Virus record (IMG/VR): IMGVR_UViG_3300038696_000126
Span: 1 to 64,000 of that record
Strand: one strand, 5' to 3'
Length of the DNA stretch: 64,000 nt
From: a virus
Shown piece by piece: positions 25,098 to 56,642 of the stretch. The stretch's first letter is position 1; the number at the start of each line of letters is the position of its first letter. Under the pieces are notes generated by a model. That model was not told where the DNA came from, made no database searches, and was given only the letters and a program-made list of their open reading frames with translations. The translations under genes were made by a program, and so were the position numbers.

Positions 25098-25190
25098 TAA
25101 TGTTGAGTATGTGGTTTTGTAAGCCATAGAAAAAATTACAATTAAATGAATATAAACTTTGTGGGCTTATAAGCTATATACAGTGCTACC
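25098..25190 (+). repeat. cassette junction hairpin 1
   Basis: Left arm GTATGTGGTTTTGTAAGCC (25107-25125) and right arm GGCTTATAAGCTATATAC (25164-25181) pair with G.T wobbles. The outer cores are degenerate (TAATG and TGCTACC). The following CTACCCAC...AAAATTAC segment recurs inverted after the 45-aa gene. Confidence 0.65.
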
Positions 25191-25210
25191 CACTTTTAAA
25201 ATTACGTATT

Positions 25211-25348
25211 ATGAAAGGATTAAAAATGTTTTTTGAAATACTGGCTAAATACCAACAAATTAAGTTTGAGTTAAAAGGAAATTTTGAAAAGTTAAGGGTT
25301 AATCTTAGAATATATTATGCTGCTAAAATAAAAGATATGCATCAGTAA
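25211..25348 (+). CDS. cassette-borne 45-aa basic protein
   Basis: ATG 25211, product MKGLKMFFEILAKYQQIKFE..., basic and helical, unrecognised. Sequence before the gene (25185-25205) matches the reverse complement of sequence after it (25345-25365) at 17 of 21 positions, marking the two ends of one cassette. The stop codon lies inside the right-hand inverted copy. Confidence 0.55.
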   Translation: MKGLKMFFEILAKYQQIKFELKGNFEKLRVNLRIYYAAKIKDMHQ

Positions 25349-25360
25349 TTTTTATTGTGG

Positions 25361-25420
25361 GTAACGTTATATGTGTAAGATTAGTTGCGTGAATTAAGAA
25401 CTGAATTAAATAAAAATACA
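25361..25420 (+). repeat. cassette half-site with loop leader
   Basis: GTAACGTTATATGTGTAAG looks like the left arm of a junction hairpin, followed by the loop motif GAATTAAGAACTGAATTAAA that runs directly into ATG 25421. No right arm follows. A similar leader (TTGAATTAAGAACTGAAG) precedes the methyltransferase at 45495. Confidence 0.5.
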
Positions 25421-25747
25421 ATGACTAAAAAACAAGAATTAATAGAATATGTAATAGGTAATGAATTTATAACTAAACCTTGTTTACAAGACAAATTCAC
25501 TACACTTTTAGATGAAGCAATAACCGAGCAATTAATTTTACACGATGTTAGCGTTTCGTTGCCTACTGACCCTTTAATATTAGCCGAATACTTACACGAT
25601 AGTTACGAAATTATAGCCAAAAAAAGTAAATGGAATACGCAAGAAATCTGTAAAGTTTCATTTAAAGACTTACCTAACGAAAATAAAACTACTATGATTC
25701 TTTTGGCGGGTAAATTAATACTAGACTTTGTTGTCAATGAACGCTAA
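25421..25747 (+). CDS. unknown protein (108 aa) in a cassette
   Basis: Starts at ATG 25421 (MTKKQELIEYVIGNEFI) rather than the in-frame TTG at 25385, because the intervening bases match the non-coding loop leader seen elsewhere. A helical acidic protein, no family recognised. Its TAA stop lies in the CTAACG core of the next hairpin. Confidence 0.55.
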   Translation: MTKKQELIEYVIGNEFITKPCLQDKFTTLLDEAITEQLILHDVSVSLPTDPLILAEYLHDSYEIIAKKSKWNTQEICKVSFKDLPNENKTTMILLAGKLILDFVVNER

Positions 25748-25793
25748 CGTTTAGTATAAACCCCATTAAAACGAGGGTTTATACATTGTTAGT
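25743..25793 (+). repeat. cassette junction hairpin 3 (clean short example)
   Basis: GCTAACG, then GTATAAACCC (25754-25763) pairing perfectly over 10 bp with GGGTTTATAC (25775-25784), then GTTAGT. The preceding stop codon TAA is part of the CTAAC core. This is the easiest site to see by eye. Confidence 0.8.
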
Positions 25794-25827
25794 ATTAGTA
25801 CGGATTTATAAACTTAAAAATATAATT

Positions 25828-26007
25828 ATGAAAACAGCAGTAACAGTAACAACTTGCGTACAAATAGGCATTGAAACTTGGAGAGATGTATGCACTACAA
25901 AAGTTTTTGACGAAAACGCGACACTTGGAGAAATAGATAAATGGGTAAAAAGCATTGATAAAACAACACCATTGTCAGGCGTAAAGTTTGGTGATATAGC
26001 GGAGTAG
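25828..26007 (+). CDS. cassette-borne 59-aa protein
   Basis: ATG 25828 after TATAATT gives MKTAVTVTTCVQIGIETWRD..., a small alpha/beta protein; the upstream in-frame start would extend through the inverted repeat and is rejected. Flanks: GTTAGTATTAGTAC before and TAGTATTAATACTAAC after, an inverted match. Confidence 0.55.
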   Translation: MKTAVTVTTCVQIGIETWRDVCTTKVFDENATLGEIDKWVKSIDKTTPLSGVKFGDIAE

Positions 26008-26010
26008 TAT

Positions 26011-26075
26011 TAATACTAACGATGGTAATATGGTTAGTGGCTTTTTAGCCATTAAATATATTACGTGTTACCTAC
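26011..26075 (+). repeat. cassette junction hairpin 4
   Basis: Arms GTAATATGGTTAGTGGCT (26025-26042) and AGCCATTAAATATATTAC (26047-26064), 18 nt each, with wobble Gs in the left arm. Outer cores are CTAAC (26016-26020) and GTTACC (26067-26072). Confidence 0.75.
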
Positions 26076-26161
26076 TGGTGCGACTTTAAAAGACAGAACT
26101 TAAATTAATAACCGAACCTTTTCTATTATTTTTTAGAGCGAGGGCAAATTAAGATGATAAA

Positions 26162-26869
26162 ATGAACAACATAGAATTAATAAACAAAGATTGCTTTTTA
26201 GCAATAAGAGAATTAAAAGACAATAGTGTAGATTTAATTGTAACAGACCCGCCTTATGGAATAAACTTTACTAAAGGATATAAAAGCGGAAGCAAAGAGC
26301 TGGTACACGGAGATGATGGATTTTCTGTTATGGTTTTTGTAGATGAATTAATGAAAGAATTTAATAGAATACTAAAACCAAATAGCGCTATTTATATATT
26401 TACAAGATTTGATGTTTACCCCTATTGGTGGCTTAAAATGAAAAACCACTTTGATACTAAAAATCAAATTATATGGTTTAAGGGCGGTGGCGGTATGGGT
26501 GACCTTAAAGGGAACTTTAGTTTTAATTATGAGAGTATTATTTACGCTACGAATGGCAAACACCAGATAAGAGGAAAAAGAGATGGTAGTGTTTGGCAGA
26601 TTGGAAAATGTAAAGAAGGATTGCACGAAACACCAAAGCCAGTTGATTTAATAAGAAAAATAATACTTCATAGCTCCGACAAGGGAATGACTGTGTTTGA
26701 CCCCTTTATGGGAGCTGGAACAACTGGTGTCGCTTGTGTTGAAGAGGAACGGGATTTTATAGGAATAGAAATGATAAAATCAAATTATGATATAGCAGAA
26801 GCGAGGGTAGCAAAAAAAATAATAGAAAAAGACTTTGAAGCACCAACTTTGTTTAATGAACTAAATTAA
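26162..26869 (+). CDS. DNA methyltransferase, beta-class (N6-adenine or N4-cytosine), in a cassette
   Basis: Transfers methyl from S-adenosylmethionine to DNA. Catalytic motif DPPYGI at 29-34 near the N-terminus and the AdoMet motif FDPFMGAGTTG near the C-terminus, in the beta-class order. At 235 residues it is compact and has no endonuclease partner nearby, so it probably protects phage DNA from host restriction. Flanks GTTACCTACTGGTGC and GCACTTGTAGGTAAC are inverted copies, showing that it travels as one cassette. It is one of five methyltransferase-like genes here. Confidence 0.85.
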   Translation: MNNIELINKDCFLAIRELKDNSVDLIVTDPPYGINFTKGYKSGSKELVHGDDGFSVMVFVDELMKEFNRILKPNSAIYIFTRFDVYPYWWLKMKNHFDTKNQIIWFKGGGGMGDLKGNFSFNYESIIYATNGKHQIRGKRDGSVWQIGKCKEGLHETPKPVDLIRKIILHSSDKGMTVFDPFMGAGTTGVACVEEERDFIGIEMIKSNYDIAEARVAKKIIEKDFEAPTLFNELN

Positions 26870-26879
26870 GCACTTGTAG

Positions 26880-26930
26880 GTAACCCAAGGCTAAAAGCCT
26901 GTTTTAATGGCTTTTCAGCTAATGTTAGCC
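26880..26930 (+). repeat. cassette junction hairpin 5 (end of first + array)
   Basis: Starts GGTAACCC and ends GTTAGCC. Inner arms GGCTAAAAGCC and GGCTTTTCAGCT pair with one bulge. The next gene is the replication initiator, after a further 170 bp containing a terminator-like hairpin. Confidence 0.55.
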
Positions 26931-27025
26931 TCTTGTCAATTAATAGTGAAATAATGTGCGGTTAAACCAAAACGTTTCTGTACGTTTGCTCAACCGAGTG
27001 ATAGCGGTATTAAAACTTTATACAA

Positions 27026-27073
27026 TCCTCTAGTAAGTAGCGTCTATCACCGTGAACACTAGGGGATTTTTTA
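27026..27073 (+). terminator. rho-independent terminator between cassette array and initiator gene
   Basis: CCTCTAGT (27027-27034) pairs with ACTAGGGG (27058-27065), followed by six T residues. An outer GTGATAG/CTATCAC pair (about 26998 and 27044) makes the leader more structured. It lies just before ATG 27099, so it may act as an attenuator for the replication operon. Confidence 0.55.
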
Positions 27074-27098
27074 TTTCTTAATAGATTAAACAAAACAC

Positions 27099-27899
27099 AT
27101 GAAAGGAATTTTAAAAATTGGTTTTGCAGATAACTTTACCAGAGTGCCTAATTCAGTTTTAGCCAATAAAGAGTTAACGTGGAAGGACAAGGGCATCTTC
27201 TCTTATATGTTATCTAAGGTAGGTATTAGTGATTGGCAGTTCTACCTAAAAGACATCGAGAATCAATCTAAAGACGGTAGAGAATCAGTTGCTAGTTCGG
27301 TTAAAAACTTGCAGGAAAGAGGTTATCTAAAAATAGAGAATGTACGGGACTCAAAAGGCATGATAACTCATAAGGATTGGACGCTTTTGTTGCCCGAAAC
27401 GCCTGCGCCTATTAGCTCTCAACCTGATAACGGGAAACCCGTCTTACGGGAAACCCGTCTTACGGTTAAGCCGTCTTACGGGAAACCCGCACCTAATAAG
27501 AAAGAGTACAATAATACTGAATACAAAAAGAAAGAATCTAGTAATAAAGAAATAGACAAAACCGAATTTCTATCTTACATGAAAGAGAGCGGTAAGGTTG
27601 ATAATTACGCTAATGCGCTTTACAACCGACTAAAAGCAAATAACTTTAGCAACAAGGACGGTGAGTTTATTGAGAACTGGAAAGCTTACGTCAACTCTAT
27701 TTTGAAAAACGATTACGATATTGGTAATGCCCAGACAAGAGAGGATGAATTAAAAGAAGCTGAAACTAGGGTTGCTCAGTATTCACGTACTTACCTAACC
27801 GATACTAACCTTGCTTTATCAGTTTACATCTCGGAGCAAGATGGCACTCGTAGAAAAAAAGACTTACACCGATACTTAAAACTCATAGAAAAGTTATGA
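27099..27899 (+). CDS. replication initiator (winged-helix N-terminus, lambda-O-like organisation)
   Basis: N-terminal winged-helix typical of phage replisome organisers: FTRVPNSVLANKELTWKDKG, IFSYMLSK and a KNLQERGYLKIENVRD wing. The middle (residues about 111-131) is encoded by a 16-bp DNA repeat array likely to be the origin. The C-terminal half is polar and helical and may contact the helicase encoded next (4-bp overlap at 27896). Role inferred: origin recognition and helicase loading. Confidence 0.72.
   Translation: MKGILKIGFADNFTRVPNSVLANKELTWKDKGIFSYMLSKVGISDWQFYLKDIENQSKDGRESVASSVKNLQERGYLKIENVRDSKGMITHKDWTLLLPETPAPISSQPDNGKPVLRETRLTVKPSYGKPAPNKKEYNNTEYKKKESSNKEIDKTEFLSYMKESGKVDNYANALYNRLKANNFSNKDGEFIENWKAYVNSILKNDYDIGNAQTREDELKEAETRVAQYSRTYLTDTNLALSVYISEQDGTRRKKDLHRYLKLIEKL
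27431..27490 (+). repeat. 16-bp iteron array inside the initiator gene (candidate origin)
   Basis: Units CGGGAAACCCGTCTTA at 27431-27446 and 27447-27462, a variant CGGTTAAGCCGTCTTA at 27463-27478, and a partial CGGGAAACCCG from 27479. Each unit holds a dyad CGGGnnnCCCG. As 16 is not a multiple of three, successive copies are read in different frames, so the repeat is kept at DNA level. Confidence 0.75.
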
Positions 27900-29898: not shown

Positions 29899-29992
29899 TA
29901 ACGCTCAGGCTAAGGTTAATAGCCGTTAATCACTAACCATTAAACTATAACAAGACCTAATTAGGCTATTAATTTTAGCCAATGTTAGGCAC
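29899..29992 (+). repeat. cassette junction hairpin 6
   Basis: TAACG (29899-29903), left arm GGCTAAGGTTAATAGCC (29908-29924), right arm GGCTATTAATTTTAGCC (29964-29980), then GTTAGGC. Very similar in sequence to the site at 53707. The rest of the 29837-30000 gap shows nothing else. Confidence 0.7.
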
Positions 29993-30000
29993 TTTTAATT

Positions 30001-30162
30001 ATGGGACAATACAGATTTTCGATTTACGCACACTGGCAGATAGGATTAATGATAAAAATTGATGAATACTCGGTAGATATAAATCTGCCGTTTGTTACAA
30101 TGCATATTGCTATTAGTAAACACGCAAAAGGAATTGAACTATTTGGCAGATACATTGGGTAA
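30001..30162 (+). CDS. cassette-borne 53-aa protein
   Basis: ATG 30001 directly follows GTTAGGCACTTTTAATT. Product MGQYRFSIYAHWQIGLMIKI... is strand-rich and unrecognised. After its stop, TAATTGTGCCTAAC is the inverted copy of the upstream flank, so this gene alone fills a 200-bp cassette. Confidence 0.55.
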   Translation: MGQYRFSIYAHWQIGLMIKIDEYSVDINLPFVTMHIAISKHAKGIELFGRYIG

Positions 30163-30166
30163 TTGT

Positions 30167-30215
30167 GCCTAACACAGGAATATAAACCGTAAAACACAGT
30201 AGAGTTGCAATAACT
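30167..30215 (+). repeat. compact-type half-site closing a one-gene array
   Basis: GCCTAACACAGGAATATAAA followed by CCGTAAAAC matches the left arm of the compact sites (CTAACACAAGAATAAAAACC) but no right arm follows before ATG 30227. Confidence 0.5.
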
Positions 30216-31612: not shown

Positions 31613-31699
31613 ACACGGGTAGCTTAAATGGTAAAGCGTTTGGTAATTGCAAACCCAAAATATAAGAGTAACTCTTTGGTTCGAGTCCCTTTCCGTGTG
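31613..31699 (+). tRNA. tRNA-like element, anticodon loop would read AAT; atypical
   Basis: Acceptor arms ACACGGG (31613-31619) and TCCGTGT (31692-31698) pair over 7 bp, followed by GCA. TA at positions 8-9, a D arm GCTT/AAGC with AAATGGTA loop, and a perfect anticodon stem GTTTG/CAAAC around GTAATTG. A long variable arm (AAGAG/CTCTT) and TTCGAGT T-loop follow, but the T stem has only two good pairs and base 26 is missing. It could be a divergent long-variable-arm tRNA, a decayed tRNA or a tRNA mimic. Confidence 0.5.
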
Positions 31700-31737
31700 C
31701 AATAAAATTACAATAAATTAATAAAAGCATAATTATA

Positions 31738-32132: not shown

Positions 32133-32684
32133 ATGACTCATAAAACAAAACACGTTCATTTAGATTTACAGGCCATTATCAACTTCATTGAGGATAAAAC
32201 GGGTTACACCGTAGAGGAATTAAAAGGCAGGGGTAAAAAAGGAAACATTATTTATGCTAGACATATTTACACTTTCTTGGCTAAAAAACACACCATGCAT
32301 TCGTGGGCCTCTATTGCGTCATTACTTGGCCGTAATCACGCAACATCAATACATTCAAATAAAGTAGTTAACAACGTTATAGGTGCTAAAAATAAAGAAG
32401 GTCAGTATTACACTAACGTGGAAAATGCCTTTAACATAAGTAACATTTTAGGTTCGGAAGAATTAATTAGGATAAGTGGTAGGCCACGTTGTGCTCCAAG
32501 GAACTACCAAGAAAGCCTATCTAGGAAGGACACAGCTATCGCTAGAATGTATTTAGAGTACACTAGGCTACAATCTATCACCGAGAAGGTAATGAATAGC
32601 GTAGATGGCGGTATAGAGGCTAGTCTAATTAGTTCATTGGCTAAGTCAAAAGGGATTGTTAACTGCTTAAAAATGAATAGTTAA
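32133..32684 (+). CDS. DnaA domain IV-like DNA-binding protein
   Basis: The N-terminal 90 residues resemble the DNA-box-binding domain of DnaA: YTVEELKGRGKKGNIIYARH, IYTFLAKKHTMHSWASIASL and LGRNHATSIHSNKVV, matching DnaA's GGRDHTTVLHA signature. There is no AAA+ ATPase domain, so it can bind DnaA-box-like sites but not drive melting. The C-terminal half is helical and unrecognised. It could recruit the phage replisome, block host initiation or act as a transcription regulator. Confidence 0.7.
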   Translation: MTHKTKHVHLDLQAIINFIEDKTGYTVEELKGRGKKGNIIYARHIYTFLAKKHTMHSWASIASLLGRNHATSIHSNKVVNNVIGAKNKEGQYYTNVENAFNISNILGSEELIRISGRPRCAPRNYQESLSRKDTAIARMYLEYTRLQSITEKVMNSVDGGIEASLISSLAKSKGIVNCLKMNS

Positions 32685-33021: not shown

Positions 33022-33060
33022 TATAACGTTTAGTATATGAATAGTGGCGAATAAATACGC
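33022..33060 (+). repeat. cassette half-site
   Basis: ATAACGTTTAGTATATGAAT followed by AGTGGCG is the left arm of a junction hairpin; the sequence then runs as an A-rich leader into ATG 33076. No right arm. Confidence 0.5.
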
Positions 33061-33075
33061 ACTAAATTTTGAATT

Positions 33076-33309
33076 ATGACAGATACTAATAAAAATACAC
33101 AGACCACCGAATTAAGCACTAAACAGCCATTATTTATAGATGGTGTTATGCCCCGTTTTTTAAAGACAAAATACTCTTTAGAAGAACTAGACCAATATGT
33201 TATGGAATTATCATCAAGAACAGACAAACACATTCATCGAGGTAAATTAGATGATATTGAAAAACTAATCAGATGGCGAAGAAGATACGATGCTCTAAAT
33301 GGGGCATAA
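33076..33309 (+). CDS. unknown small protein (77 aa), cassette region
   Basis: Unrecognised helical protein with a basic end (HRGKLDDIEKLIRWRRRYD). Its stop TAA is part of the next half-site TAACGG. No inverted flank was found, so cassette membership is less certain. Confidence 0.5.
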   Translation: MTDTNKNTQTTELSTKQPLFIDGVMPRFLKTKYSLEELDQYVMELSSRTDKHIHRGKLDDIEKLIRWRRRYDALNGA

Positions 33310-33345
33310 CGGTTAGTATATGATTTCGGGCGTAAATAAAGACAG
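33307..33345 (+). repeat. cassette half-site
   Basis: TAACGGTTAGTATATGATTT then CGGGCG resembles the half-site at 33022; the TAA is the stop codon of the upstream gene. Leader ACAGAATTTAAGTAATAAA precedes ATG 33369. Confidence 0.5.
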
Positions 33346-33368
33346 AATTTAAGTAATAAAAAAAAATT

Positions 33369-33599
33369 ATGAGTGAGCAAATAGATAACAAAGAAACAGA
33401 AACTAAGCCTGAATTATATACAGTGTTAGCAACAGTAGTTTCTATGGTAAAAGAGGAAGTTGCGGAAGAATACGGGTTTAAAAAAGCCTTTATTGTAGAT
33501 ACAAAATGGGATTACGCTATGATGATACATCACCGAACAAAAAAGCAAATAGAAATGTATGAAAGGCTTTGTATGAAGTTAGCTCACTATTGTTGCTAA
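33369..33599 (+). CDS. unknown small protein (76 aa), cassette region
   Basis: Helical, with a polar N-terminus (NKETETKPELYTVLATV). Unrecognised. Last gene before the compact hairpin; its stop codon is the TAA of the hairpin's CTAAC core. Confidence 0.5.
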   Translation: MSEQIDNKETETKPELYTVLATVVSMVKEEVAEEYGFKKAFIVDTKWDYAMMIHHRTKKQIEMYERLCMKLAHYCC

Positions 33600-33650
33600 C
33601 ACAAGAATAAAAACCGTGCATTACAGCATGGTTTCTTATTTAATGTTATT
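33596..33650 (+). repeat. compact cassette junction hairpin closing an array
   Basis: CTAACACAAGAATAAAAACC then GTGC pairs with GCATGG and TTTCTTATTTAATGTTA. It sits exactly where + and - genes converge (33599/33649), so it may also act as a two-way transcription stop. Confidence 0.75.
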
Positions 33651-42181: not shown

Positions 42182-42212
42182 TTGTCTAGTTTTACGATAA
42201 TAAACTGGACAA
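42182..42212. terminator. 11-bp hairpin ahead of the second cassette array
   Basis: TTGTCTAGTTT (42182-42192) pairs with AAACTGGACAA (42202-42212). It has no T-run on the + strand. It merges into the first junction hairpin of the array and may be a degenerate site or a processing/termination hairpin. The rest of 42085-42181 shows nothing recognisable. Confidence 0.4.
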
Positions 42213-42266
42213 CGTTTAGTATAAGACCCGTTTTTTTATGGGTTTTATATAGTGTTAGCATTAGTA
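42210..42266 (+). repeat. cassette junction hairpin at the start of the second array
   Basis: ACAACGTTTAGT, left arm ATAAGACCC (42221-42229), right arm GGGTTTTAT (42240-42248), then GTTAGCATTAGTAC. The left core is imperfect (CAAC instead of TAAC). Confidence 0.7.
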
Positions 42267-42285
42267 CGGATTTAAAACAACAAAT

Positions 42286-43143
42286 ATGATTGATATAAGA
42301 TTAAGTGATAATTTAGAATTAATGGCAGAAATGCAAGATAATACAGTAGATTTAATTTACTGTGATATACTTTATGGAACAGGCAGAAAATTTGCAGACT
42401 ACCAAGATTTAAAACCTAAACGTGAAATTATAGAAGAACATTACATACCAAGAATTAAAGAAATGCACCGTATTTTAAAAGATACAGGAAGTATTTACCT
42501 GCAAATGAGCGAAGAAATTTTACATTGGATCAGATGTGTAATGGATGATACTTTTGGGTATGAGCGTTTTTTAAGACAGATTTATTGGAAACGAACAGAT
42601 AATAAAGGTAGCAGTAAAGCTAAGTGTAAAACATTCCCAAATTCTATTGACTGCATTGTTTGTTATTCAAAATCTATCGAGTTCACATTCAATTTACAGT
42701 ATTCAGAATATTCACAAAAAAGAATTAATGAGTTTAGACACGAGGACAAAAAGGGTAAATACCGCTGGCAGACCCTAAAAACTTATTCCAATGATAGATA
42801 TGAAAAATTAATAAGCGAAGGAATGATTAAAACACCTCAAACAAGCGTATACCCACAGTTTAAGCAGTATTTAATGGACAGTAAGGGTGTTATATTAGAT
42901 AATAATTGGCAGGATTTGTATTACGTTAAGTACAACGCAAAATACAATACTGAAAAACCCAAAGCATTAATTGAGCGAATAATAAAAGCAAGTAGTAACG
43001 AAGGGGATTTAGTTGCTGACTTTTACGCTGGAAGTCATACTACAGGGGAAGTGGCGTTAGAGTTAGGGCGAAGCTATATAGGATGTGATATAAATCCGAG
43101 AAGCTTAGAGATAGGTAAAGAAAGATTAAAAAGATTTTTTTAA
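42286..43143 (+). CDS. DNA methyltransferase-like protein with altered catalytic motif; C-terminus replaced
   Basis: Beta-class layout, but the catalytic motif IV reads DILY (27-30) where DPPY is expected, so activity is doubtful. The AdoMet motif is DFYAGSHTTGEVA instead of DPFxGxGTT. Otherwise the fold is well preserved, including a target-recognition region around 85-200. A homing-type HNH gene follows after 11 bp, and behind it lies the coding tail of a related methyltransferase. The simplest reading is that the present C-terminus came with the endonuclease. Upstream flank GTTAGCATTAGTAC pairs with the flank at 43889, beyond the HNH gene. Confidence 0.75.
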   Translation: MIDIRLSDNLELMAEMQDNTVDLIYCDILYGTGRKFADYQDLKPKREIIEEHYIPRIKEMHRILKDTGSIYLQMSEEILHWIRCVMDDTFGYERFLRQIYWKRTDNKGSSKAKCKTFPNSIDCIVCYSKSIEFTFNLQYSEYSQKRINEFRHEDKKGKYRWQTLKTYSNDRYEKLISEGMIKTPQTSVYPQFKQYLMDSKGVILDNNWQDLYYVKYNAKYNTEKPKALIERIIKASSNEGDLVADFYAGSHTTGEVALELGRSYIGCDINPRSLEIGKERLKRFF

Positions 43144-43158
43144 TACATACTTTTATGT

Positions 43159-43166
43159 TATCTTTG
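43159..43166 (+). promoter_or_regulatory. promoter element for the HNH endonuclease gene
   Basis: TATCTTTG fits the TAnnTTTG element and lies 16 bp before ATG 43182. It suggests the endonuclease gene carries its own promoter, as expected of a mobile gene, and argues for the internal start over ATG 43155. Confidence 0.5.
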
Positions 43167-43181
43167 AACAAATTTAAAAAT

Positions 43182-43793
43182 ATGATTAAAAACGAGAAAA
43201 TATCTGATTTGAAAAGGCATAACTTAACAGGTGTTAAAGTTGGCAAACTTACAGTTTTAAATATATCAGAAAAAAGAAACAAACACAATAGAATTATGTG
43301 GGATTGTATTTGTGAATGTGGTAATAAAAAAACAGTGGCAGCCGATATGCTAAACAAATCATTAAGAGGTGGAATAGGGACTAAAAGTTGCGGATGTCTA
43401 AGAAACAATTCACACAATAAAATCAAGGATAGAGTATATGCAGTGTGGTTACAATTATATAACTCAAGTACATTAAAAAAAGAAACTTATAGATTGAAAA
43501 AGGGGTGGAGTAAATCTGACATTGCATTTGAAACTTTTAAAGCTTTATGTTCAACTAAATGTTTTTATTGTGGAGCAATTGGTTCTAATAAAGCGATGGA
43601 TATAAAAGAAGGAAAGCTAATATCAGATACAACTATAAGATATAACGGACTTGATAGGGTTGATAGCTCTATCGGTTATATGGAAGAAAATATAATTCCT
43701 TGTTGTAAGTATTGCAATAGAGCAAAAAGTGATACGACTGATACGGAGTTTTTGGCTTGGATAAAAAGGGTATATAAGTATAATTTTAAATAG
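43182..43793 (+). CDS. HNH homing endonuclease (203 aa)
   Basis: Site-specific nuclease of the free-standing phage HNH type. The N-terminal zinc-bound DNA-binding module reads WDCICECGNKKTVAADMLN with a later KSCGCL; the HNH nuclease is CFYCGA, YNGLDRVDSSIGY and NIIPCCKYCNRAKSD, in the usual order. Start at 43182 is chosen because ATG 43155 overlaps the promoter-like TATCTTTG. It sits between a methyltransferase gene and a relic of another methyltransferase tail, indicating insertion near the 3' end of that gene. Confidence 0.85.
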   Translation: MIKNEKISDLKRHNLTGVKVGKLTVLNISEKRNKHNRIMWDCICECGNKKTVAADMLNKSLRGGIGTKSCGCLRNNSHNKIKDRVYAVWLQLYNSSTLKKETYRLKKGWSKSDIAFETFKALCSTKCFYCGAIGSNKAMDIKEGKLISDTTIRYNGLDRVDSSIGYMEENIIPCCKYCNRAKSDTTDTEFLAWIKRVYKYNFK

Positions 43794-43895
43794 TTTACAA
43801 CCGCAGAAGTGTGTAAGGATTTAAACAGAAATTTTATAGGTTGTGATATTTCTGAAAAGGCAGTAGCTATCGGATTAAAAAGGACTAAGTATTAA
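43794..43895 (+). pseudogene. relic C-terminus of a DNA methyltransferase
   Basis: After the HNH stop, the same frame reads FTTAEVCKDLNRNFIGCD then ISEKAVAIGLKRTKY and a TAA. This aligns with the C-terminus of the methyltransferase at 42286 (HTTGEVALELGRSYIGCD...). It lacks a start and an N-terminus, so it is a displaced 3' fragment. It ends in TATTAATGCTAAC, the natural cassette end matching the flank at 42254. Confidence 0.75.
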
Positions 43896-43955
43896 TGCTA
43901 ACGTTTGTATATGAAGCGTTGAGGAACGAAATTATTTTATATACCGTGTTATATT
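43896..43955 (+). repeat. cassette junction hairpin
   Basis: TGCTAACG (43896-43903), left arm GTATATGAA, right arm TTTTATATAC, then GTTATATTTTAGTGCGG. Follows the methyltransferase relic directly. Confidence 0.7.
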
Positions 43956-43991
43956 TTAGTGCGGTTAATTAAAAACAAAACTTAATAAATT

Positions 43992-44264
43992 ATGATAAAA
44001 ATACAAACATTTAGAAACCCGGAAGGCTACACTTTAAACCAACTAATAAGAGAAAAGCCAACTTGCTTTAATGGTAATGTTACTGTAGAAAAGTACGAAA
44101 TAACAGTGGTAAAGATTGAAGAGCCAAAAGAAGTTTATAGAGAAAGACTACAAAAACTTTGGGATGAATGTGATAACCACCATCATTGGACACCATTAAA
44201 GGGAAAGGCAAAAGAATTAGGCGTTGAATTGATTGGTGATGCTGGTAGTAAACTAAAAAGATAG
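43992..44264 (+). CDS. cassette-borne unknown protein (90 aa)
   Basis: Alpha/beta N-terminus and a basic helical C-terminus with a His-rich DNHHHW patch. Unrecognised. Flanks GTTATATTTTAGTGC before and GCATTAAATATAAC after are inverted copies; the right copy covers the stop region. Confidence 0.55.
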   Translation: MIKIQTFRNPEGYTLNQLIREKPTCFNGNVTVEKYEITVVKIEEPKEVYRERLQKLWDECDNHHHWTPLKGKAKELGVELIGDAGSKLKR

Positions 44265-44280
44265 CATTAAATATAACGAA

Positions 44281-44526
44281 ATGAATAAAAACAGTAACGA
44301 CATGAAAGAACAACTGACAATAATAAGTGATGACCTTAATCATGGCATCATAACCGAAAACGAAGCACGTACCAAGTTATTGATTTTACTTGGTGTTAGC
44401 GGTAGGGCTTCCCAATTAGAAGAAGATGCCTTTAAGTTAATAAACAGCTATTGCAAAAATGGACTTAAAAAACCTGACTTGGTTAAAAAAATGGAATGGA
44501 TTACAGGTAGTTGTAAAATGAGTTAG
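44281..44526 (+). CDS. unknown helical protein (81 aa)
   Basis: Begins 16 bp after the previous gene, at a fused boundary where only the right-hand flank of the previous cassette remains. An internal ATG at 44302 is an alternative start. Helical with several Lys/Glu pairs, unrecognised. Confidence 0.5.
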   Translation: MNKNSNDMKEQLTIISDDLNHGIITENEARTKLLILLGVSGRASQLEEDAFKLINSYCKNGLKKPDLVKKMEWITGSCKMS

Positions 44527-44538
44527 CACCGCATTACC

Positions 44539-44668
44539 GCTAACGGTAGGTACATGGTTTGTAGGCATAGACAAGCGATAACTTTCGGATTAAACAACTA
44601 CTTAAATAAATAAAAATAAAGATTGAATTATTAACCAACTGCCTATAAATTATATACTTTGTTATATA
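44539..44668 (+). repeat. cassette junction hairpin (long loop)
   Basis: CTAACG, left arm GTACATGGTTTGTAGGCA (44550-44567), about 70-nt A-rich loop, right arm TGCCTATAAATTATATAC (44640-44657), then GTTATATACTGGGCGG. Mismatches are mostly G.T with G on the left. Confidence 0.75.
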
Positions 44669-44697
44669 CTGGGCGGTTTAAAACACAAAATTTAATT

Positions 44698-44949
44698 ATG
44701 AAAACTAAATTAGAATTACCAAGCAATCCAAGAATGCACAATCCTGATGGAATGTATGCAAGTGAGGCAAGAATTGAAGATTATTATTCTTTGAGAGATT
44801 ATTTTGCAGGAAAAGCAATGAATGGTTATTTATCTGCAAGCGTTGACGTTATTAATCGTGGATTTCCAATAGACGCACATAACATAGCTAATGAATGCTA
44901 TATAATTGCTGACGCTATGATAAAAGCCCGTTCTGAAAACGAATTATAG
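44698..44949 (+). CDS. cassette-borne phage protein with YFAxKAM motif (83 aa)
   Basis: Start at ATG 44698; the longer frame would run through the right flank of the hairpin. Contains YSLRDYFAGKAMNGYLS, the LxxYFAxKAMxG motif seen in many small phage proteins of unknown function, and a C-terminal helix AYxIADAMIKAR-like. The next cassette (45118) holds a paralogue. Flanks GTTATATAC...GGC and GCCTTGTATATAAC match inversely. Confidence 0.65.
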   Translation: MKTKLELPSNPRMHNPDGMYASEARIEDYYSLRDYFAGKAMNGYLSASVDVINRGFPIDAHNIANECYIIADAMIKARSENEL

Positions 44950-44958
44950 CCTTGTATA

Positions 44959-45090
44959 TAACGTTCATGTATAAGATTTGAAGCGGATAAAAAAGCACAA
45001 ACCAAACGAATAAACACAGAATTAAATAAATAGTAATAACCTTTAATAAAGACCTAAAACCGCTTTTAATTTTATACGGTGTTAGCAACT
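44959..45090 (+). repeat. cassette junction hairpin (long loop)
   Basis: TAACG (44959-44963), left arm GTATAAGATTTGAAGCGG (44969-44986), right arm CCGCTTTTAATTTTATAC (45060-45077), then GTTAGCAACTGGGCGG. The loop contains GAATTAAATAAATAG, the leader-like motif. Confidence 0.8.
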
Positions 45091-45117
45091 GGGCGGTTTT
45101 AAAAACGAAAATTAATT

Positions 45118-45393
45118 ATGAAAACACAAAACAAACCCGCCTTTCCTGTTGAAGTATCAATAGCTGATAATGGTAATTTAAGAGGTTCGCAAACTTCTAA
45201 CTTTTCTGGCTATGAAATGGGATTAACAAAACGTGAATACTTTGCATCTAAAGCTATGCAAGGTTTACTATCTAATCCTGAATGGATGAAAGAATACAAG
45301 GGCGAAAAGTACTTAATGCAAAGTGATATATTAGCTGATATTGCGATAAAAACAGCCGACAATTTATTATCTAAACTCTCAAACGAAGACTAA
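45118..45393 (+). CDS. cassette-borne phage protein with YFAxKAM motif, paralogue (91 aa)
   Basis: Contains GLTKREYFASKAMQGLLSNP and a helical C-terminus (DILADIAIKTADNLL), matching the 83-aa protein one cassette upstream in motif and order. Similar proteins are widespread in phage genomes without assigned function. Flanks GTTAGCAACTGGGC and GCCTTGTTGCTAAC are inverted copies. Confidence 0.68.
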   Translation: MKTQNKPAFPVEVSIADNGNLRGSQTSNFSGYEMGLTKREYFASKAMQGLLSNPEWMKEYKGEKYLMQSDILADIAIKTADNLLSKLSNED

Positions 45394-45405
45394 TTGTAGC
45401 CTTGT

Positions 45406-45440
45406 TGCTAACGTATAGTGGTATGGTGCGTAGCCTTAAA
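45406..45440 (+). repeat. left arm of a split junction hairpin
   Basis: TGCTAACG then GTGGTATGGTGCGTAGC (45418-45434). Its partner GCTATGCACTATACCAC lies at 46356-46372, after the methyltransferase gene, so the loop of this hairpin contains a whole gene. Confidence 0.7.
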
Positions 45441-45494
45441 ATGCACGAAGATTGAATTAAGAACTGAAGTAATAATTAAAATATTTTTAAAAGC

Positions 45495-46274
45495 GTGGGC
45501 AAAAAAATTGACTTATATAACGAGAATTGTGAAGATACTATGAAGCGTATTGAAACTGGAAATGTAAAATTAATACTTACAGACCCACCTTATAACACAA
45601 CACAATGTGATTGGGAATATGAATTGGATTTGCCTAAAATATGGCAACAATGGGAACGTATTTTAGCAGATGATGGTGTTATAATTGTGTTTGCTGATGA
45701 ACCATTTACAAGTAAATTAATAGTTTCTAAACTTGGGTTTTTTAAATACAGAATTACTTGGGATAAAATGACTGGTTCTAATTTCTTGAATGCTCACAAA
45801 ATGCCATTGAAACAAACAGAAGATGCTGTTGTATTTGCAAAGGTTAAGAACGGACAATACACTTATAACCCAATTTTAACAGATAAGCCAAAACAAAATA
45901 TAAGACCTGAAGGAAAACCAAAAAAGAAAAAAGCATCTACTTATGGCGAACATAATGGAAGTTTTCACGAATCTTATGATAATACTAAAAGTTACCCAAC
46001 TAACTTACTTTCTTTATCTTCTAAAACTGATGAATGCAACCCATTAAATAGAGTACACCCAACACAAAAACCAATTGATTTAATGCGTAATTTGATTATT
46101 ACCTACTCTAATAAAGGTGATTTAGTTTTTGATGGTTATTCTGGAAGTGGAACAACTGCACACGCTTGTATTTTAGAGAATAGAAATTTTATAGGTGCTG
46201 AACTTGATAAGACTTACTTTGATAAAAGCATTGAACGTTTAAGATTAGAACAGATGCAAACCAAATTGTTTTGA
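45495..46274 (+). CDS. DNA methyltransferase, beta-class adenine/N4-cytosine, inside a hairpin loop
   Basis: GTG start at 45495 (MGKKIDLYNENCEDTM). Catalytic DPPYNTT (30-36) and the C-terminal AdoMet motif FDGYSGSGTTAHA are intact, with VHPTQKPIDLM before it, typical of phage N6-adenine methyltransferases. No partner nuclease. The gene occupies the loop between the two arms of one junction hairpin, unlike other cassettes where genes lie between hairpins. A 17-bp direct repeat with one mismatch (AGCGTGGGCAAAAAAAT) starts at 45492 and 46287, flanking the gene. Confidence 0.85.
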   Translation: MGKKIDLYNENCEDTMKRIETGNVKLILTDPPYNTTQCDWEYELDLPKIWQQWERILADDGVIIVFADEPFTSKLIVSKLGFFKYRITWDKMTGSNFLNAHKMPLKQTEDAVVFAKVKNGQYTYNPILTDKPKQNIRPEGKPKKKKASTYGEHNGSFHESYDNTKSYPTNLLSLSSKTDECNPLNRVHPTQKPIDLMRNLIITYSNKGDLVFDGYSGSGTTAHACILENRNFIGAELDKTYFDKSIERLRLEQMQTKLF

Positions 46275-46286
46275 TAAAAACAAAAG

Positions 46287-46303
46287 AGCGTTGGCAAAAA
46301 AAT
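46287..46303 (+). repeat. right copy of a 17-bp direct repeat flanking the methyltransferase
   Basis: AGCGTTGGCAAAAAAAT differs in one base from the copy at 45492-45508, which overlaps the gene's GTG start. It could be an insertion duplication or the product of cassette recombination. Confidence 0.5.
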
Positions 46304-46355
46304 ATTTTAATTATGGTTAGACAAACAAAAATGATTGAATTAGGCACGAACCTAA

Positions 46356-46382
46356 GCTATGCACTATACCACGTGTTAGCAA
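46356..46382 (+). repeat. right arm of the split junction hairpin
   Basis: GCTATGCACTATACCAC then GTGTTAGCA. Pairs with 45418-45434 across the 780-bp methyltransferase gene with two G.T wobbles. Confidence 0.7.
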
Positions 46383-46403
46383 ATCGTTTTAATGTTTGCT
46401 AAC
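46375..46403 (+). repeat. 29-bp gene-less mini-cassette
   Basis: Bounded by GTTAGCAAA and TTTGCTAAC with TCGTTTTAATG in the centre. Same length as the elements at 19890 and 54987. Confidence 0.6.
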
Positions 46404-46453
46404 ACAAGAATAAACACTGTGCTTTTTGCATTGTGTTTTATTTAATGTTATGC
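46397..46453 (+). repeat. compact cassette junction hairpin closing the second array
   Basis: TGCTAACACAAGAATAAACA then CTGTGC, loop, GCATTGTGTTTTATTTAATG and GTTATGC. Downstream genes no longer show cassette junctions. Confidence 0.75.
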
Positions 46454-53558: not shown

Positions 53559-53566
53559 TATGTTTG
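53559..53566 (+). promoter_or_regulatory. TAnnTTTG promoter element for the third cassette array
   Basis: TATGTTTG lies 18 bp before ATG 53585. It is the only consensus-like element seen ahead of the 53.6-56.6 kb cassette genes, which fits one promoter serving an array. Confidence 0.5.
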
Positions 53567-53584
53567 CAGTGTAAAATATAAGTA

Positions 53585-53704
53585 ATGATAGAAAATCCAG
53601 AGGAAATACACAAAATTGCAGGGCAGGTTATAATTGCTCTAGGCTTAGTCTTAATAGCTATTGCTATATTAGTAAGTGTTTTAGTGTATAATTGGCTACC
53701 CTAG
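53585..53704 (+). CDS. 39-aa single-pass membrane protein
   Basis: ATG 53585. N-terminal MIENPEEIHKIAGQ then one hydrophobic segment (IALGLVLIAIAILVSVLVY) to the C-terminus. Like the 82-aa protein at 24849, it is a membrane protein that heads a cassette array. Confidence 0.5.
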   Translation: MIENPEEIHKIAGQVIIALGLVLIAIAILVSVLVYNWLP

Positions 53705-53706
53705 CG

Positions 53707-53795
53707 GTTTGGCTAAGATTAGTAGCCTAAGAAATGAACTAATCAATTAAAAAACTAAGCATCATAAGGCTATTAATTTTAGCTTTTGTTAGGGT
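53707..53795 (+). repeat. cassette junction hairpin opening the third array
   Basis: Left arm GCTAAGATTAGTAGCC (53712-53727), right arm GGCTATTAATTTTAGC (53768-53783), then GTTAGGGTGC. Closely related in sequence to the site at 29899. Confidence 0.7.
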
Positions 53796-53814
53796 GCGTT
53801 AATAATTGTTAAAA

Positions 53815-54066
53815 ATGAACACATTAGTCTCAATTAGAACAAACATTATTTACAGCAAAGAAGTAACAGGCAAAGAAAAATACAACCGTAACCAAGAATT
53901 AATACTGCTTGTCGATAAGCCTAAATACACCTACTCAAATGAGGGTGAAATAGTAAGAGAAAGAGGGCTTGAAGAATTAAGATTTACAGTAAGCGAAAAA
54001 GGCTTTGAGCAACTTATTAAAATGCTTGAAAAAATGAAAGAAGTAGAGCCTGACGAATTAGGGTAA
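53815..54066 (+). CDS. cassette-borne unknown protein (83 aa)
   Basis: Start ATG 53815 rather than TTG 53806. Strand-rich first half, helical second half (EKGFEQLIKMLEKMKEVEPD). Flanks GTTAGGGTGC (53788-53797) and GCACCCTAAC (54068-54077) are perfect inverted copies, a clean example of matched cassette ends. Confidence 0.6.
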   Translation: MNTLVSIRTNIIYSKEVTGKEKYNRNQELILLVDKPKYTYSNEGEIVRERGLEELRFTVSEKGFEQLIKMLEKMKEVEPDELG

Positions 54067-54067
54067 T

Positions 54068-54115
54068 GCACCCTAACGTTTAGTATAAGAGCCGTTTTTT
54101 AATGGCTTTTAAACA
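54068..54115 (+). repeat. cassette junction hairpin, right core decayed
   Basis: GCACCCTAACGTTTAG, left arm TAAGAGCC (54086-54093), right arm GGCTTTTA (54104-54111). The expected GTTAG is replaced by ACACTAAA. Confidence 0.6.
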
Positions 54116-54150
54116 CTAAATTTTATTAATAATTAAAAACTAAAAGTAAA

Positions 54151-54333
54151 ATGGAAATAACAGTAAATCAGATTCGAGAAAAGCAAAAGCTACTCGAAAA
54201 AGACCTATCTACCAAGCTCAACCAGTTTGAGCGGGAGACTGGAATTAAGGTAACGGGTGATATAAAATGGGGATATACACAAGAAAAAAAACAGCATTGG
54301 ATAAGTTTAAATTACTCTAATCCATTTATGTAA
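54151..54333 (+). CDS. unknown small protein (60 aa)
   Basis: Helical first half (IREKQKLLEKDLSTKLNQF) and strand-rich second half (GDIKWGYTQEKKQHWISLNY). Unrecognised. Follows a junction with a lost right core. Confidence 0.5.
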   Translation: MEITVNQIREKQKLLEKDLSTKLNQFERETGIKVTGDIKWGYTQEKKQHWISLNYSNPFM

Positions 54334-54364
54334 TATTTTCCTGACGTTTTTAATATGAATAGTA

Positions 54365-54616
54365 ATGGAAGAAATAAAAGATAAGATTTTAGAAGAGTAC
54401 AAAAAAGGAAATATTGTAGTTTCTGGATTTGAAGGCTTACAAGTTATGCCTATAAAGGATTTTATAAAGGAACCAACGGAAGGAATGCTTTATGACTTAA
54501 ACAGAAACGAAGCAGTTGTATTAACTTTTTTACCAGACCCTAAGTGGGTAAATGATTATGCAGTTGCTAAAGTTATTGCTGAATTAAAAAACAGAATTAA
54601 AGAACTTGAAGGTTAG
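54365..54616 (+). CDS. unknown protein (83 aa)
   Basis: Alpha/beta, ends in a helix (VAKVIAELKNRIKELEG). Preceded by a weak half-site (TGACGTTTTTAATATGAAT). The stop codon TAG begins the next junction. Unrecognised. Confidence 0.5.
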   Translation: MEEIKDKILEEYKKGNIVVSGFEGLQVMPIKDFIKEPTEGMLYDLNRNEAVVLTFLPDPKWVNDYAVAKVIAELKNRIKELEG

Positions 54617-54715
54617 CATTAAATATAATGATTGGGCTATGAATTGAAGCCAAGTAAAAATGTTCAATTCGATTACAAATCTTCATAGGCTTTTATTTAT
54701 AGCCTGTGCTATAAA
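54617..54715 (+). repeat. cassette junction hairpin
   Basis: Left arm GGCTATGAATTGAAGCC (54635-54651), right arm GGCTTTTATTTATAGCC (54688-54704) pair over 17 nt with G.T wobbles. Outer cores degenerate (ATAATG and GTGCTATAAAG). Confidence 0.65.
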
Positions 54716-54723
54716 GCGTTTTT

Positions 54724-54876
54724 ATGGAAACTGACAAAGAAAAATTAGAAAGATTAATGGATGATGAATATGACACTATTAAAAAACTAAAACAAAAGAA
54801 GAAAGATATTGATAGGCAAATTGATAACAGTTTTGTAAATTTAGATAAATATGGGGCAAGGTTAAATTCTTTATAA
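54724..54876 (+). CDS. cassette-borne 50-aa coiled-coil protein
   Basis: ATG 54724; charged helix with heptads (KEKLERLMDDEYDTIKKLKQ). The stop TAA lies in CTTTATAACGG, the inverse of the upstream CTATAAAG. Unrecognised. Confidence 0.5.
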   Translation: METDKEKLERLMDDEYDTIKKLKQKKKDIDRQIDNSFVNLDKYGARLNSL

Positions 54877-54964
54877 CGGCAATAATAAAGTTAGCACTGG
54901 TTGACCTGAAAAGATGGACTACATAGAGTGCCAAAACTCTACAAACCCTATTACGGATGCTAAC
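54874..54964 (+). repeat. small junction plus gene-less cassette
   Basis: TAACGGCAATAATAAAG then GTTAGCA (54890-54896) and, 61 bp on, TGCTAAC (54958-54964). The segment between carries no plausible ORF. It may be an eroded cassette. Confidence 0.5.
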
Positions 54965-54986
54965 GCCTTTATTATTTATATTTATT

Positions 54987-55015
54987 GTTATGTGCTTTTT
55001 TAATTGCATCATAAC
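54987..55015 (+). repeat. 29-bp gene-less mini-cassette
   Basis: Bounded by GTTATGTGC (54987-54995) and GCATCATAAC (55006-55015), centre TTTTTTAATT. Third element of this exact length in the window. Confidence 0.55.
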
Positions 55016-55100
55016 GTTTTGTGTATGGCAAGTAGCCGAAGCACGGACGTTAAAATTTAGGACGAACCTTAATAGGCTATTTGCTATACACGGTGTTAGC
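55012..55100 (+). repeat. cassette junction hairpin (17-bp stem)
   Basis: TAACG, left arm GTGTATGGCAAGTAGCC (55021-55037), right arm GGCTATTTGCTATACAC (55075-55091), then GTTAGCATTAGTACGG. Only two wobbles, both G left/T right. Confidence 0.8.
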
Positions 55101-55135
55101 ATTAGTACGGGATTTGAAAAACTAAAGATTGATTT

Positions 55136-55756
55136 ATGAAAGTATTAATTACACACGAAGAAAGCCAAACGGTTATGACTGCATTTTTAGAAGCTGGGCA
55201 CGATGCTTATAGTTGTGACCTGCTTCCAGCAAGTGGTAAATACCCTGAAAGACATTTACAAATGGATTATTTAAAAGCTATTGAAAAAATAAAGCCTGAC
55301 TTTTTAGGAATGCATCCTGAATGCACAAGGCTAACTGTAGCAGCTAATAAATATTATAAACCTGAATATGCGGAAAGGTTTCCAACTATACAACAGGACA
55401 GGCTTGAAGCTGTTTCTCATTTCTTTAATTGTGCAATGGCTCTGAACAAAATAGGCAAGGGGTATATAGAAAATCCAATAGGAATAATGAGCAGACTTTA
55501 TCGGAAGCCTAACCAAATTATACAGCCTTATCAGTACGGACATACGGAAAGAAAAAGTACTTGTTTATGGCTTGCCGGGCTACTAAAATTAAAACCAACA
55601 AATATAGTTGAGCCTGATATTATAATACATAAAAGCGGTAGAACAGATAGTAGGCTTCATTTTGAAACGCTTAAACTACCAAAAGAAGAAAGGCGAAAAG
55701 CACGAAGCAAAAGCTTTGTTGGTATCGCGAATGCTATGGCTGAACAATGGACGTAG
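55136..55756 (+). CDS. cytosine-C5 methyltransferase-like phage protein, in a cassette
   Basis: Starts MKVLITHEESQTVMTAFLEA then HDAYSCDLLP, the AdoMet-binding pattern of small phage Dcm-like proteins, followed by MHPECTRLTVAA where the family usually has PPCTHL, and GYIENPIGIMS (ENP motif). The catalytic loop has PEC instead of PPC, so activity is uncertain, although the cysteine remains. 206 residues, typical of the phage family. Flanks GTTAGCATTAGTAC and GTATTAATGCTAAC are inverted copies identical to those of the 42286 cassette. Confidence 0.72.
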   Translation: MKVLITHEESQTVMTAFLEAGHDAYSCDLLPASGKYPERHLQMDYLKAIEKIKPDFLGMHPECTRLTVAANKYYKPEYAERFPTIQQDRLEAVSHFFNCAMALNKIGKGYIENPIGIMSRLYRKPNQIIQPYQYGHTERKSTCLWLAGLLKLKPTNIVEPDIIIHKSGRTDSRLHFETLKLPKEERRKARSKSFVGIANAMAEQWT

Positions 55757-55762
55757 TATTAA

Positions 55763-55857
55763 TGCTAACGTATTGTATATGGTTTGAAAGCCAACTACAA
55801 ACGCTGATTAAATGAACGAATATTAACATGGCTTTTTAACTATATACGTTGTTAGCC
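55763..55857 (+). repeat. cassette junction hairpin
   Basis: TGCTAACG, left arm GTATATGGTTTGAAAGCCA (55774-55792), right arm TGGCTTTTTAACTATATAC (55829-55847), then GTTAGCCACAGTAC. The loop is 36 nt. Confidence 0.8.
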
Positions 55858-55873
55858 ACAGTACATTTTAGAT

Positions 55874-56593
55874 ATGAAATACATGGGAAGCAAGGCGAGA
55901 TACTCTAAAGAAATTTTGCCTATAATATTAAAAACCCGAAAGCCTGAACAGCACTACATAGAGCCTTTTGCGGGTGGAATGAATATGATTGATAAAGTAG
56001 AAGGTAACAGGATAGCAAACGACATTAACTATGAGCTTATGCAGATGTGGGAAGCCCTTGTTAATGATGATTGGCTACCTAATAAAATTATAAGCAGAGA
56101 GTTTTACAACAGCATACGAGCGGACAAAACAAATTATGAACCGTGGCTTGTTGGATGGGTAGGATTTAACTGTAGCTACTCAGGTAAGTATTTTGGTGGA
56201 TATGCAGGACAAGTAAAAACAAAAGATGGAACAATACGAGATTACCAAGCCGAAGCGCATAAGAACATTAAAAAGCAAATACCTAACCTGAAGGGTGTTG
56301 TTTTTACGAATAAAGAATACTGGAACTTACAAATACCACCAAACAGTATTATATATTGCGACCCACCTTACCAAAATACGACTAAATACGCTACTGATTT
56401 TGACCATAATTTGTTTTGGGAGTGGGTTAGAAAAATGAGCAAACAAGGGCATAGCGTTTGGGTAAGCGAATATAACGCACCGAATGACTTTGAGTGTGTG
56501 TGGGAGAAGGAGGCTCGAAGCTCACTTAGCGCAAATGGTACAATAGGAGGAAGCAAAATTTCGGTTGAAAAGCTGTTCTTGTATTGTGGCTAA
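55874..56593 (+). CDS. D12-class N6-adenine DNA methyltransferase, in a cassette
   Basis: Dam-like adenine methyltransferase. MKYMGSKARYSKEIL, AdoMet motif HYIEPFAGGMNM (about 37-48), ANDIN, VGFNCSYSGKYFGGY and catalytic YCDPPYQNTTKY are all present in the D12 order. 239 residues, without a partner nuclease. The stop codon TAA is part of the CTAAC core of the closing hairpin, and flanks GTTAGCCACAGTAC / GTATTGTGGCTAAC match inversely at 13 of 14 positions. Confidence 0.9.
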   Translation: MKYMGSKARYSKEILPIILKTRKPEQHYIEPFAGGMNMIDKVEGNRIANDINYELMQMWEALVNDDWLPNKIISREFYNSIRADKTNYEPWLVGWVGFNCSYSGKYFGGYAGQVKTKDGTIRDYQAEAHKNIKKQIPNLKGVVFTNKEYWNLQIPPNSIIYCDPPYQNTTKYATDFDHNLFWEWVRKMSKQGHSVWVSEYNAPNDFECVWEKEARSSLSANGTIGGSKISVEKLFLYCG

Positions 56594-56642
56594 CACAAGA
56601 ATAAAAACCGTGTTTTCATGGTTTCTTATTTAATGTTAGCCT
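56586..56642 (+). repeat. compact cassette junction hairpin closing the third array
   Basis: GGCTAACACAAGAATAAAAA then CCGTG, 4-nt loop, CATGG and TTTCTTATTTAATG, GTTAGCC. Its right end contains the stop codon of the convergent - strand gene, so both neighbouring genes end inside it. Confidence 0.78.

Follow-up and report, generated by a model that had tools for sequence, protein, structure and literature searches.

Integrons such as those of Vibrio (integrase VchIntIA) and of class 1 (IntI1) combine an integrase gene, an adjacent attI site and cassettes with folded attC sites. The attC sites contain R and L boxes and a G^TT core (the caret marks the breakpoint), and the complementary ends lie within the same cassette. 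In published definitions the additional I2 domain is a defining and required feature of IntI. The prevailing view is that Bacteroidota have few integrons and that phages seldom carry them, and IntegronFinder 2 lists a single complete Bacteroidetes integron, in Salinibacter. Clusters of attC sites lacking an integrase (CALINs) and carrying methyltransferases were reported in virulent phages, including Polaribacter phage P12002L, by Qi et al. (2023, PMC9892861). In that work IntI1 recombined one site of P12002L, and the two P12002L sites assayed were reported with divergent directions. Here we describe cassette arrays in the IMG/VR virus record IMGVR_UViG_3300038696_000126, of which 64,000 of 71,690 bases, hereafter the window, were analysed. 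We consider, at a probability of roughly 0.85, that these are integron-type arrays whose family occurs in Bacteroidota (Flavobacteriia) and in phages of these bacteria; this phage has lost its integrase or never had one, and the enzyme would be supplied in trans.

The phage genes of the window include a terminase large subunit, a P22-like portal and virion proteins, the portal being closest to those of Flavobacterium and Cellulophaga phages (about 28-30% identity). Phage_integrase (PF00589) had 0 matches in the whole 71,690-base record, in line with an initial annotation made from the letters alone, which saw no integrase; the window phage carries no tyrosine recombinase. From position 56,643 to the end of the record no att sites were found. 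Like the phage CALINs of P12002L, the window has integrase-less single-gene cassettes of the same site type with methyltransferase cargo in a Bacteroidota phage. Integron cassettes in a phage are therefore not new, since phage CALINs have been published, and the statement of the initial annotation that no such phage system had been described does not hold. Qi et al. used canonical attC models and report no cognate integrase lineage, attI-like ends, gene inversion or natural turnover. Accounts of the integrase lineage described below, its Bacteroidota arrays or the inversion were not found in the open-access literature searched; papers elsewhere could contain them.

Folded sites and matched cassette ends in the window

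The window arrays consist of tandem, mostly one-gene cassettes with folded sites between them. A covariance model (R1), trained on 40 phage and bacterial sites, 2 of these from the window, detected 18 sites (E-values, which are rough for such models, of 4e-11 to 0.06), all within arrays; no R1 match at E < 0.1 was found outside the window arrays. This bears out the roughly 20 hairpins counted in the initial annotation, which had also suggested such a model. The model likewise finds sites of P12002L, where scan and model together gave about 10 sites of the window type, and the published P12002L_attC2 is presumably one of them. A separate scan for arm pairing returned 25 '+' and 7 '-' sites in the window, against 2-5 per strand in dinucleotide shuffles. 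R1 matched the '-' strand for '+' arrays and the '+' strand for the array at 19.5-19.9 kb, so that the sites run against the genes; an exception is the near-palindromic site at 25740-25796, which gave a second R1 match on the opposite strand. The minus-strand cassette initially proposed at 19.5-19.9 kb was recovered with sites on '+' and matching ends.

Read in gene direction, a site begins with NNNNNTAACG, a 4-5 base spacer and an arm such as GTATAwG..GCC, followed by a loop (5-160 bases) and the complementary arm; 2-3 bases separate the latter from GTTANNNNN. Among the 40 sites, 91.8% of arm cells were paired, with changes on both sides in 8 of 10 arm pairs; the outer CTAAC/GTTAG bases paired poorly across the junction, with the outer five pairs about 45-50% paired. 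The initial annotation had counted these ends as part of the hairpin, and plain junction palindromes are ruled out, since the partner of each outer core is found at the other end of its own cassette, not on the far side of the junction. The core is indeed not the strict GTTRRRY, a consensus that fits 1 of 17 window cores; it is longer and freer, namely GTT(A/G)NNNNN. By the family's own model the window fits the definition of a CALIN, with two or more neighbouring attC and no integrase. In two places an open reading frame lies within the hairpin loop and not between sites (25362-25550 and, on the minus strand, 20145-19915).

Each cassette starts with GTTRNNNNN and ends with the reverse complement of the same stretch. 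In the window, start and end were complementary at 8-9 of 9 bases in 16/17 cassettes (15/17 before a one-base coordinate correction in row 7 of our list), for example start GTTAGGGTGC with end GCACCCTAAC, and start GTTATATAC with end GTATATAAC; permuted partners averaged 2.0 matches and never exceeded 8 of 9. The same held elsewhere: pairs with at least 8/9 numbered 68/112 within cassettes against 7/112 across junctions in the first set of loci, and within-cassette ends matched in 47/61 cases against 3/61 across junctions in independently fetched bacterial loci and in 189/245 against 16/245 in viral integrase loci. Each cassette end complements the opposite end of its own cassette but not the ends of adjoining cassettes, as expected if cassettes circularise, a known integron rule. 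At phage cassette starts, for example window positions 44661, 45081 and 42254, the sequence just after the variable core is conserved (ACTGGGCGGTTT, TAGTACGGATTT).

Arrays 2, 3 and 4 and the minus-strand array end in one near-identical element, of which the array 1 element is a cousin. On the att strand it reads AATAAGAAACC...GGTTTTTATTCTTGTG^TTA, with an AATAA...TTATT stem followed, after about 5-6 bases, by G^TT. To the eye it is much like bacterial attI sites, e.g. AATAAACAACATGTGTTGTTTATTCACTTG^TTA, but differs from the attI that phages usually have ahead of the integrase start (AAC^TATTATATATAA). A blastn search of named phages with this element gave no match. From their sequence, we infer that the five elements may serve as docking points for an integrase brought in trans; the host as its source is a further guess.

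Integrases and cassette exchange in relatives

A search of genome contigs with the site pattern yielded 16 loci, and every locus named to a group belonged to Bacteroidota. In genomes carrying these sites, the best integron-integrase-like matches adjoin the arrays. Homologs of these integrases were present in 49/61 genomes of a family-level sample, and sites lay downstream of the integrase in 16/20 fetched homolog loci; the other four comprise three contigs that end within about 1 kb of the integrase gene and the most distant homolog. Together with four loci from the earlier search, the 16 gave 20 Flavobacteriia integrase loci with sites. In 20/20, the distance from the integrase stop to the G^TT at which the first cassette begins is 47-144 bases, and the start of this cassette matches the first attC at 8-9/9 bases. 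Most of the 20 also have a short stem that stops about 6 bases short of G^TT, in an attI-like layout. In the chromosomal arrays L223 and L225, as many as about 14 sites are spread over 18 kb; their length hardly varies (about 135-137 bases), which recalls Vibrio repeats to some degree.

The new integrases scored 200-237 bits on NF040815 (cut-off 220) and 177-204 bits on XerD, and fell under the IntI cut-off of TIGR02249. From the GKG motif to HxLRH, the bacterial integrases have 65 residues and the viral ones 60-66, compared with 71-77 in host Xer proteins and 106-107 in IntI. With a span about 40 residues shorter than in IntI, the I2 insert is absent from the new integrases. In the tree, the bacterial integrases form one clade (99/96 support) apart from the XerC/D of the same hosts, and the viral integrases group with this clade (93/94 support, under the starred level). 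XerC, XerD and XerA (NF040815, TIGR02225) resemble the new integrases by score, but the new ones branch apart from host XerC/D and adjoin cassette arrays. The phi13:2 recombinase gp038, which lies beside the phi13:2 array, was rejected as a candidate, being unrelated to the new clade.

A search with the new integrases returned 80 viral loci. In 59 of these the sites lie upstream of the integrase gene, the end of the last cassette matches in 48/59, and the integrase ATG mostly follows that end by 32-58 bases. When 30 such viral records were tested for terminase, 6 passed the PF03237 cut-off and others matched phrog_2. Viral cassette genes share the direction of the integrase gene, which is opposite to att polarity. 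With the longest open reading frame of each cassette as a proxy for its gene (ambiguous cassettes being excluded in the independent bacterial and viral integrase sets), and with some contigs of the viral sets possibly bacterial DNA, the ratio of genes against to genes with att polarity was 163:2 in the viral integrase loci, 45:2 in the first viral set and 15:0 in viral contigs found with the pattern used for bacteria. The independent bacterial set gave 0:43 (45:2 versus 0:43, Fisher p ~1e-23). The two exceptional cassettes of the first viral set lie in L080 and in L064, a contig whose only sites are two long ones around 1.3 kb and which may be of bacterial origin.

Because genes oppose att polarity in phages and follow it in bacteria, phage cassettes are inverted relative to chromosomal ones, and the phage hairpin belongs 5' of its gene. 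The initial annotation, which described a gene plus a folded 3' site, had read the polarity backwards; assignment of the hairpin to the preceding gene as its 3' site is ruled out by the bacterial comparison and by the Freya deletions described below. Its likeness to integrons stands for single-gene cassettes, folded sites, end complementarity and core exchange, but not for polarity or a canonical IntI, the relatives' integrase lacking I2. IntI integrons share the integrase, the adjacent attI, the G^TT core, the folded attC with R and L boxes and the complementary cassette ends with the new family; they differ in the I2 domain and the GTTRRRY core, and from the phage form also in that its genes are inverted and its integrase gene follows the array on the 3' side.

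Natural turnover was seen among seven isolates of Polaribacter phage Freya from one host strain (MT732463-MT732472, loci L359-L365), a phage that carries an integron-type integrase beside its array. Their array regions are identical except for whole cassettes, and all joins fall exactly after AAC (AAC^), the exchanged unit being a hairpin plus a gene. One 307-base cassette adjoining the integrase is missing from Freya_9 and an inner unit of 902 bases from Freya_8, and Freya_5, 2 and 1 miss progressively more, Freya_1 having an empty junction; at the same point, Freya_7 has about 470 bases that are absent from Freya_10. The words 'integron' and 'cassette' are absent from the paper describing the Freya phages.

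For the window phage, a first-pass pattern (CACAAGAATAAAAACC) gave mostly chance matches, the exception being contig L014. The two have 8.6 kb in common at 98.5% identity, and this stretch is bounded by TAAC^ACAAG and by GGACAAC(G), where they diverge. At array 2b the shared region of L014 starts at TAAC^ACAAGAATAAAAACC, with a different cassette upstream; at array 3 the 98.5% identity continues until GGACAACG at 42213, after which other cassettes follow. Freya and L014 thus show the presence and absence of cassettes, with breakpoints at cores, that the initial annotation had proposed to look for in related phages. P12024S and P12024L show cassette differences between two cores, and phi12:1 and phi17:1 diverge at AAC^ATCC. 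The exchanged stretch of P12024L includes a 38-base minicassette (L260, about 2174-2212), comparable to those of about 30 bases in the window. Relatives sought with the protein at 58.3-61.0 kb were not found.

Cargo and neighbouring features

All five methyltransferase genes recognised in the initial annotation were confirmed by family matches (PF01555 three times, PF02086 once, phrog_757 once), and its two YFAxKAM proteins proved to be one family, phrog_2201. Carriage of these DNA methyltransferases and of unknown small proteins is probably a means of evading host defence or restriction. An HNH endonuclease gene (43155-43895) follows the first methyltransferase gene of array 3 and is itself followed by a second methyltransferase-like tail, as if a homing gene had been inserted into the cassette. 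Between the two parts of array 2 lies a predicted tRNA-Ile with anticodon AAT (31613-31700), with a DnaA-like gene nearby (32133-32684). A 2,356-residue protein encoded at 10707-17777 (-) has no PHROGs match.

Table 1 Arrays, sites, cassettes, terminal elements and cargo genes of the window (strand is that of the array or gene)
Feature	Position	Strand	Basis or remark
Array 1	25098..26927	+	Site scan, covariance model, end matching
Array 1 sites	25098-25188 (decayed core), 25362-25550, 25745-25791, 26017-26070	+	
Array 1 cassettes	25185-25365, 25547-25748, 25788-26020, 26067-26884	+	
Array 1 terminal attI-like element	26881-26927	+	
N6/N4 DNA methyltransferase, cassette 26067-26884	26162..26869	+	PF01555 5e-33
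Array 2a	29899..30173	+	Site 29899-29987, cassette 29984-30173, ends GTTAGGCAC / GTGCCTAAC
Array 2b	33024..33648	+	Sites 33024-33148, 33307-33428; cassettes 33145-33310, 33425-33600
Array 2b terminal attI-like element	33597-33648	+	
Array 3	42210..46450	+	Site scan, covariance model, end matching
Array 3 sites	42210-42257, 43898-43951, 44274-44398 (weak), 44541-44664, 44959-45084	+	
Array 3 cassette starts	42254, 43948, 44395, 44661, 45081	+	
N6/N4 DNA methyltransferase, array 3 cassette gene	42286..43143	+	PF01555 7e-42
YFAxKAM proteins, neighbouring cassettes	44659-44949 and 45118-45393	+	Both phrog_2201, one family
N6/N4 DNA methyltransferase, incomplete site at 45409 before it	45495..46274	+	PF01555 5e-35
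Array 3 gene-less minicassette	~46375-46403	+	~30 bases, matching ends
Array 3 terminal attI-like element	46400-46450	+	
Array 4	53706..56638	+	Cassettes 53788-54077, 55095-55769, 55851-56594
Array 4 sites	53706-53790, 54073-54114 (partial), 54626-54711 (decayed), 55012-55098, 55766-55854	+	
DNA methyltransferase, phrog_757 family, cassette gene	55136..55756	+	6e-55
D12-class DNA methyltransferase, cassette gene	55874..56593	+	PF02086 3e-19
Array 4 terminal attI-like element	56591-56638	+	
Minus-strand array	19545..20145	-	Site scan, covariance model, end matching
Minus array sites	20145-19915 (open reading frame inside loop), 19893-19837	-	
Minus array gene-less minicassette	~19918-19890	-	~30 bases, matching ends
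Minus array cassette	19840-19591 (open reading frame 19602-19802)	-	
Minus array terminal attI-like element	19594-19545	-	

Alternative explanations and implications

The closest rival accepts the same system and takes the window arrays for inactive relics of an integrase-encoding ancestor, with nothing acting in trans now. The record without an integrase, several decayed sites and incomplete halves would fit this account, but the 98.5% relative has other cassettes at two array ends, cut exactly at cores, and most cassette ends are still perfectly matched; we consider it unlikely. That the arrays are ordinary CALINs recognised by classical bacterial IntI, which would make a separate lineage unnecessary, is improbable. 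It draws on the recombination of one site of P12002L, a phage with window-type sites, with IntI1 (Qi et al.). It is opposed by the single GTTRRRY match among 17 window cores and by the array-adjoining integrases being a clade of their own without I2 (60-66 versus 106-107 residues). In addition, most sampled Flavobacteriia loci have integrase-linked arrays, yet IntegronFinder 2 lists one Bacteroidetes integron.

Two further accounts dispense with an integron altogether. If the hairpins were terminators or repeats, the mosaic would have arisen by homologous or illegitimate recombination between them, and the terminal elements at 33.6 and 56.6 kb do lie between converging operons, with 56605-56624 scoring as a terminator. 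Terminator-like sites are, however, not enriched in the window (6 versus 8.9 in shuffles), and cassette-specific ends, a conserved TAAC-A/CG-TTA polarity and exact AAC^ joins in otherwise identical Freya genomes would be unexpected, making this account very improbable; ordinary terminators and a conserved gene order, the two outcomes that the initial annotation had set against its own proposal, did not appear when checked. Complementary ends on every unit would also suit small transposon-like elements with terminal inverted repeats and an unknown transposase. We give this the least credence, since the ends vary between units, the units stand head-to-tail in one direction with common boundaries, removal is scarless, and an integrase adjoins the arrays in relatives.

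Under the integron-type reading that we prefer, the enzyme would arrive in trans, from a host chromosomal integron or a co-infecting phage, and would resolve folded single-stranded sites, as IntI does. Cassettes would enter the window phage at its five constant attI-like terminal elements and be expressed from upstream phage promoters, and the cargo, with its five methyltransferases, would be used against host restriction. Several observations weigh against this reading. Some cores or right halves are decayed (25098, 45409, 54073, 54626), the likeness of the terminal element to bacterial attI was judged by eye, and strand choice, folding in vivo and cassette expression rest on inference. The window phage has no integrase, and its mobility is deduced from one 9 kb relative. 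Between P12024S and P12024L (L259/L260), and between L106 and P12002L (L138), some breaks fall at the other core, the G^TT of the gene strand, with both flanking hairpins shared; such breaks are not explained by a single bottom-strand cut.

A wider proposal, which we advance tentatively and at somewhat less than even odds, is that Bacteroidota and their phages share an I2-less integron lineage missed by current finders. In this lineage the phages would hold the inverted form, with cassette genes pointing at the attI and the integrase, and would actively exchange cassettes in nature; in phages without an integrase, like the one in the window, the integrase of the host integron may load counter-defence genes at docking sites of the bacterial attI type.

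The new integrases raise the question of how an I2-less enzyme handles folded sites, I2 being described as needed in IntI. The Freya isolates are a ready culture system for studying the cassette mechanism, and further cultured phages and hosts exist (Freya/Polaribacter, P12024, phi12:1). The arrays offer a testable mechanism by which lytic phages swap methyltransferases and small accessory genes. The form described here, which has an integrase clade, sites and attI of its own, is common among the sampled Flavobacteriia and is carried by many viral contigs, so that integrons probably have a far wider distribution than is now recognised.

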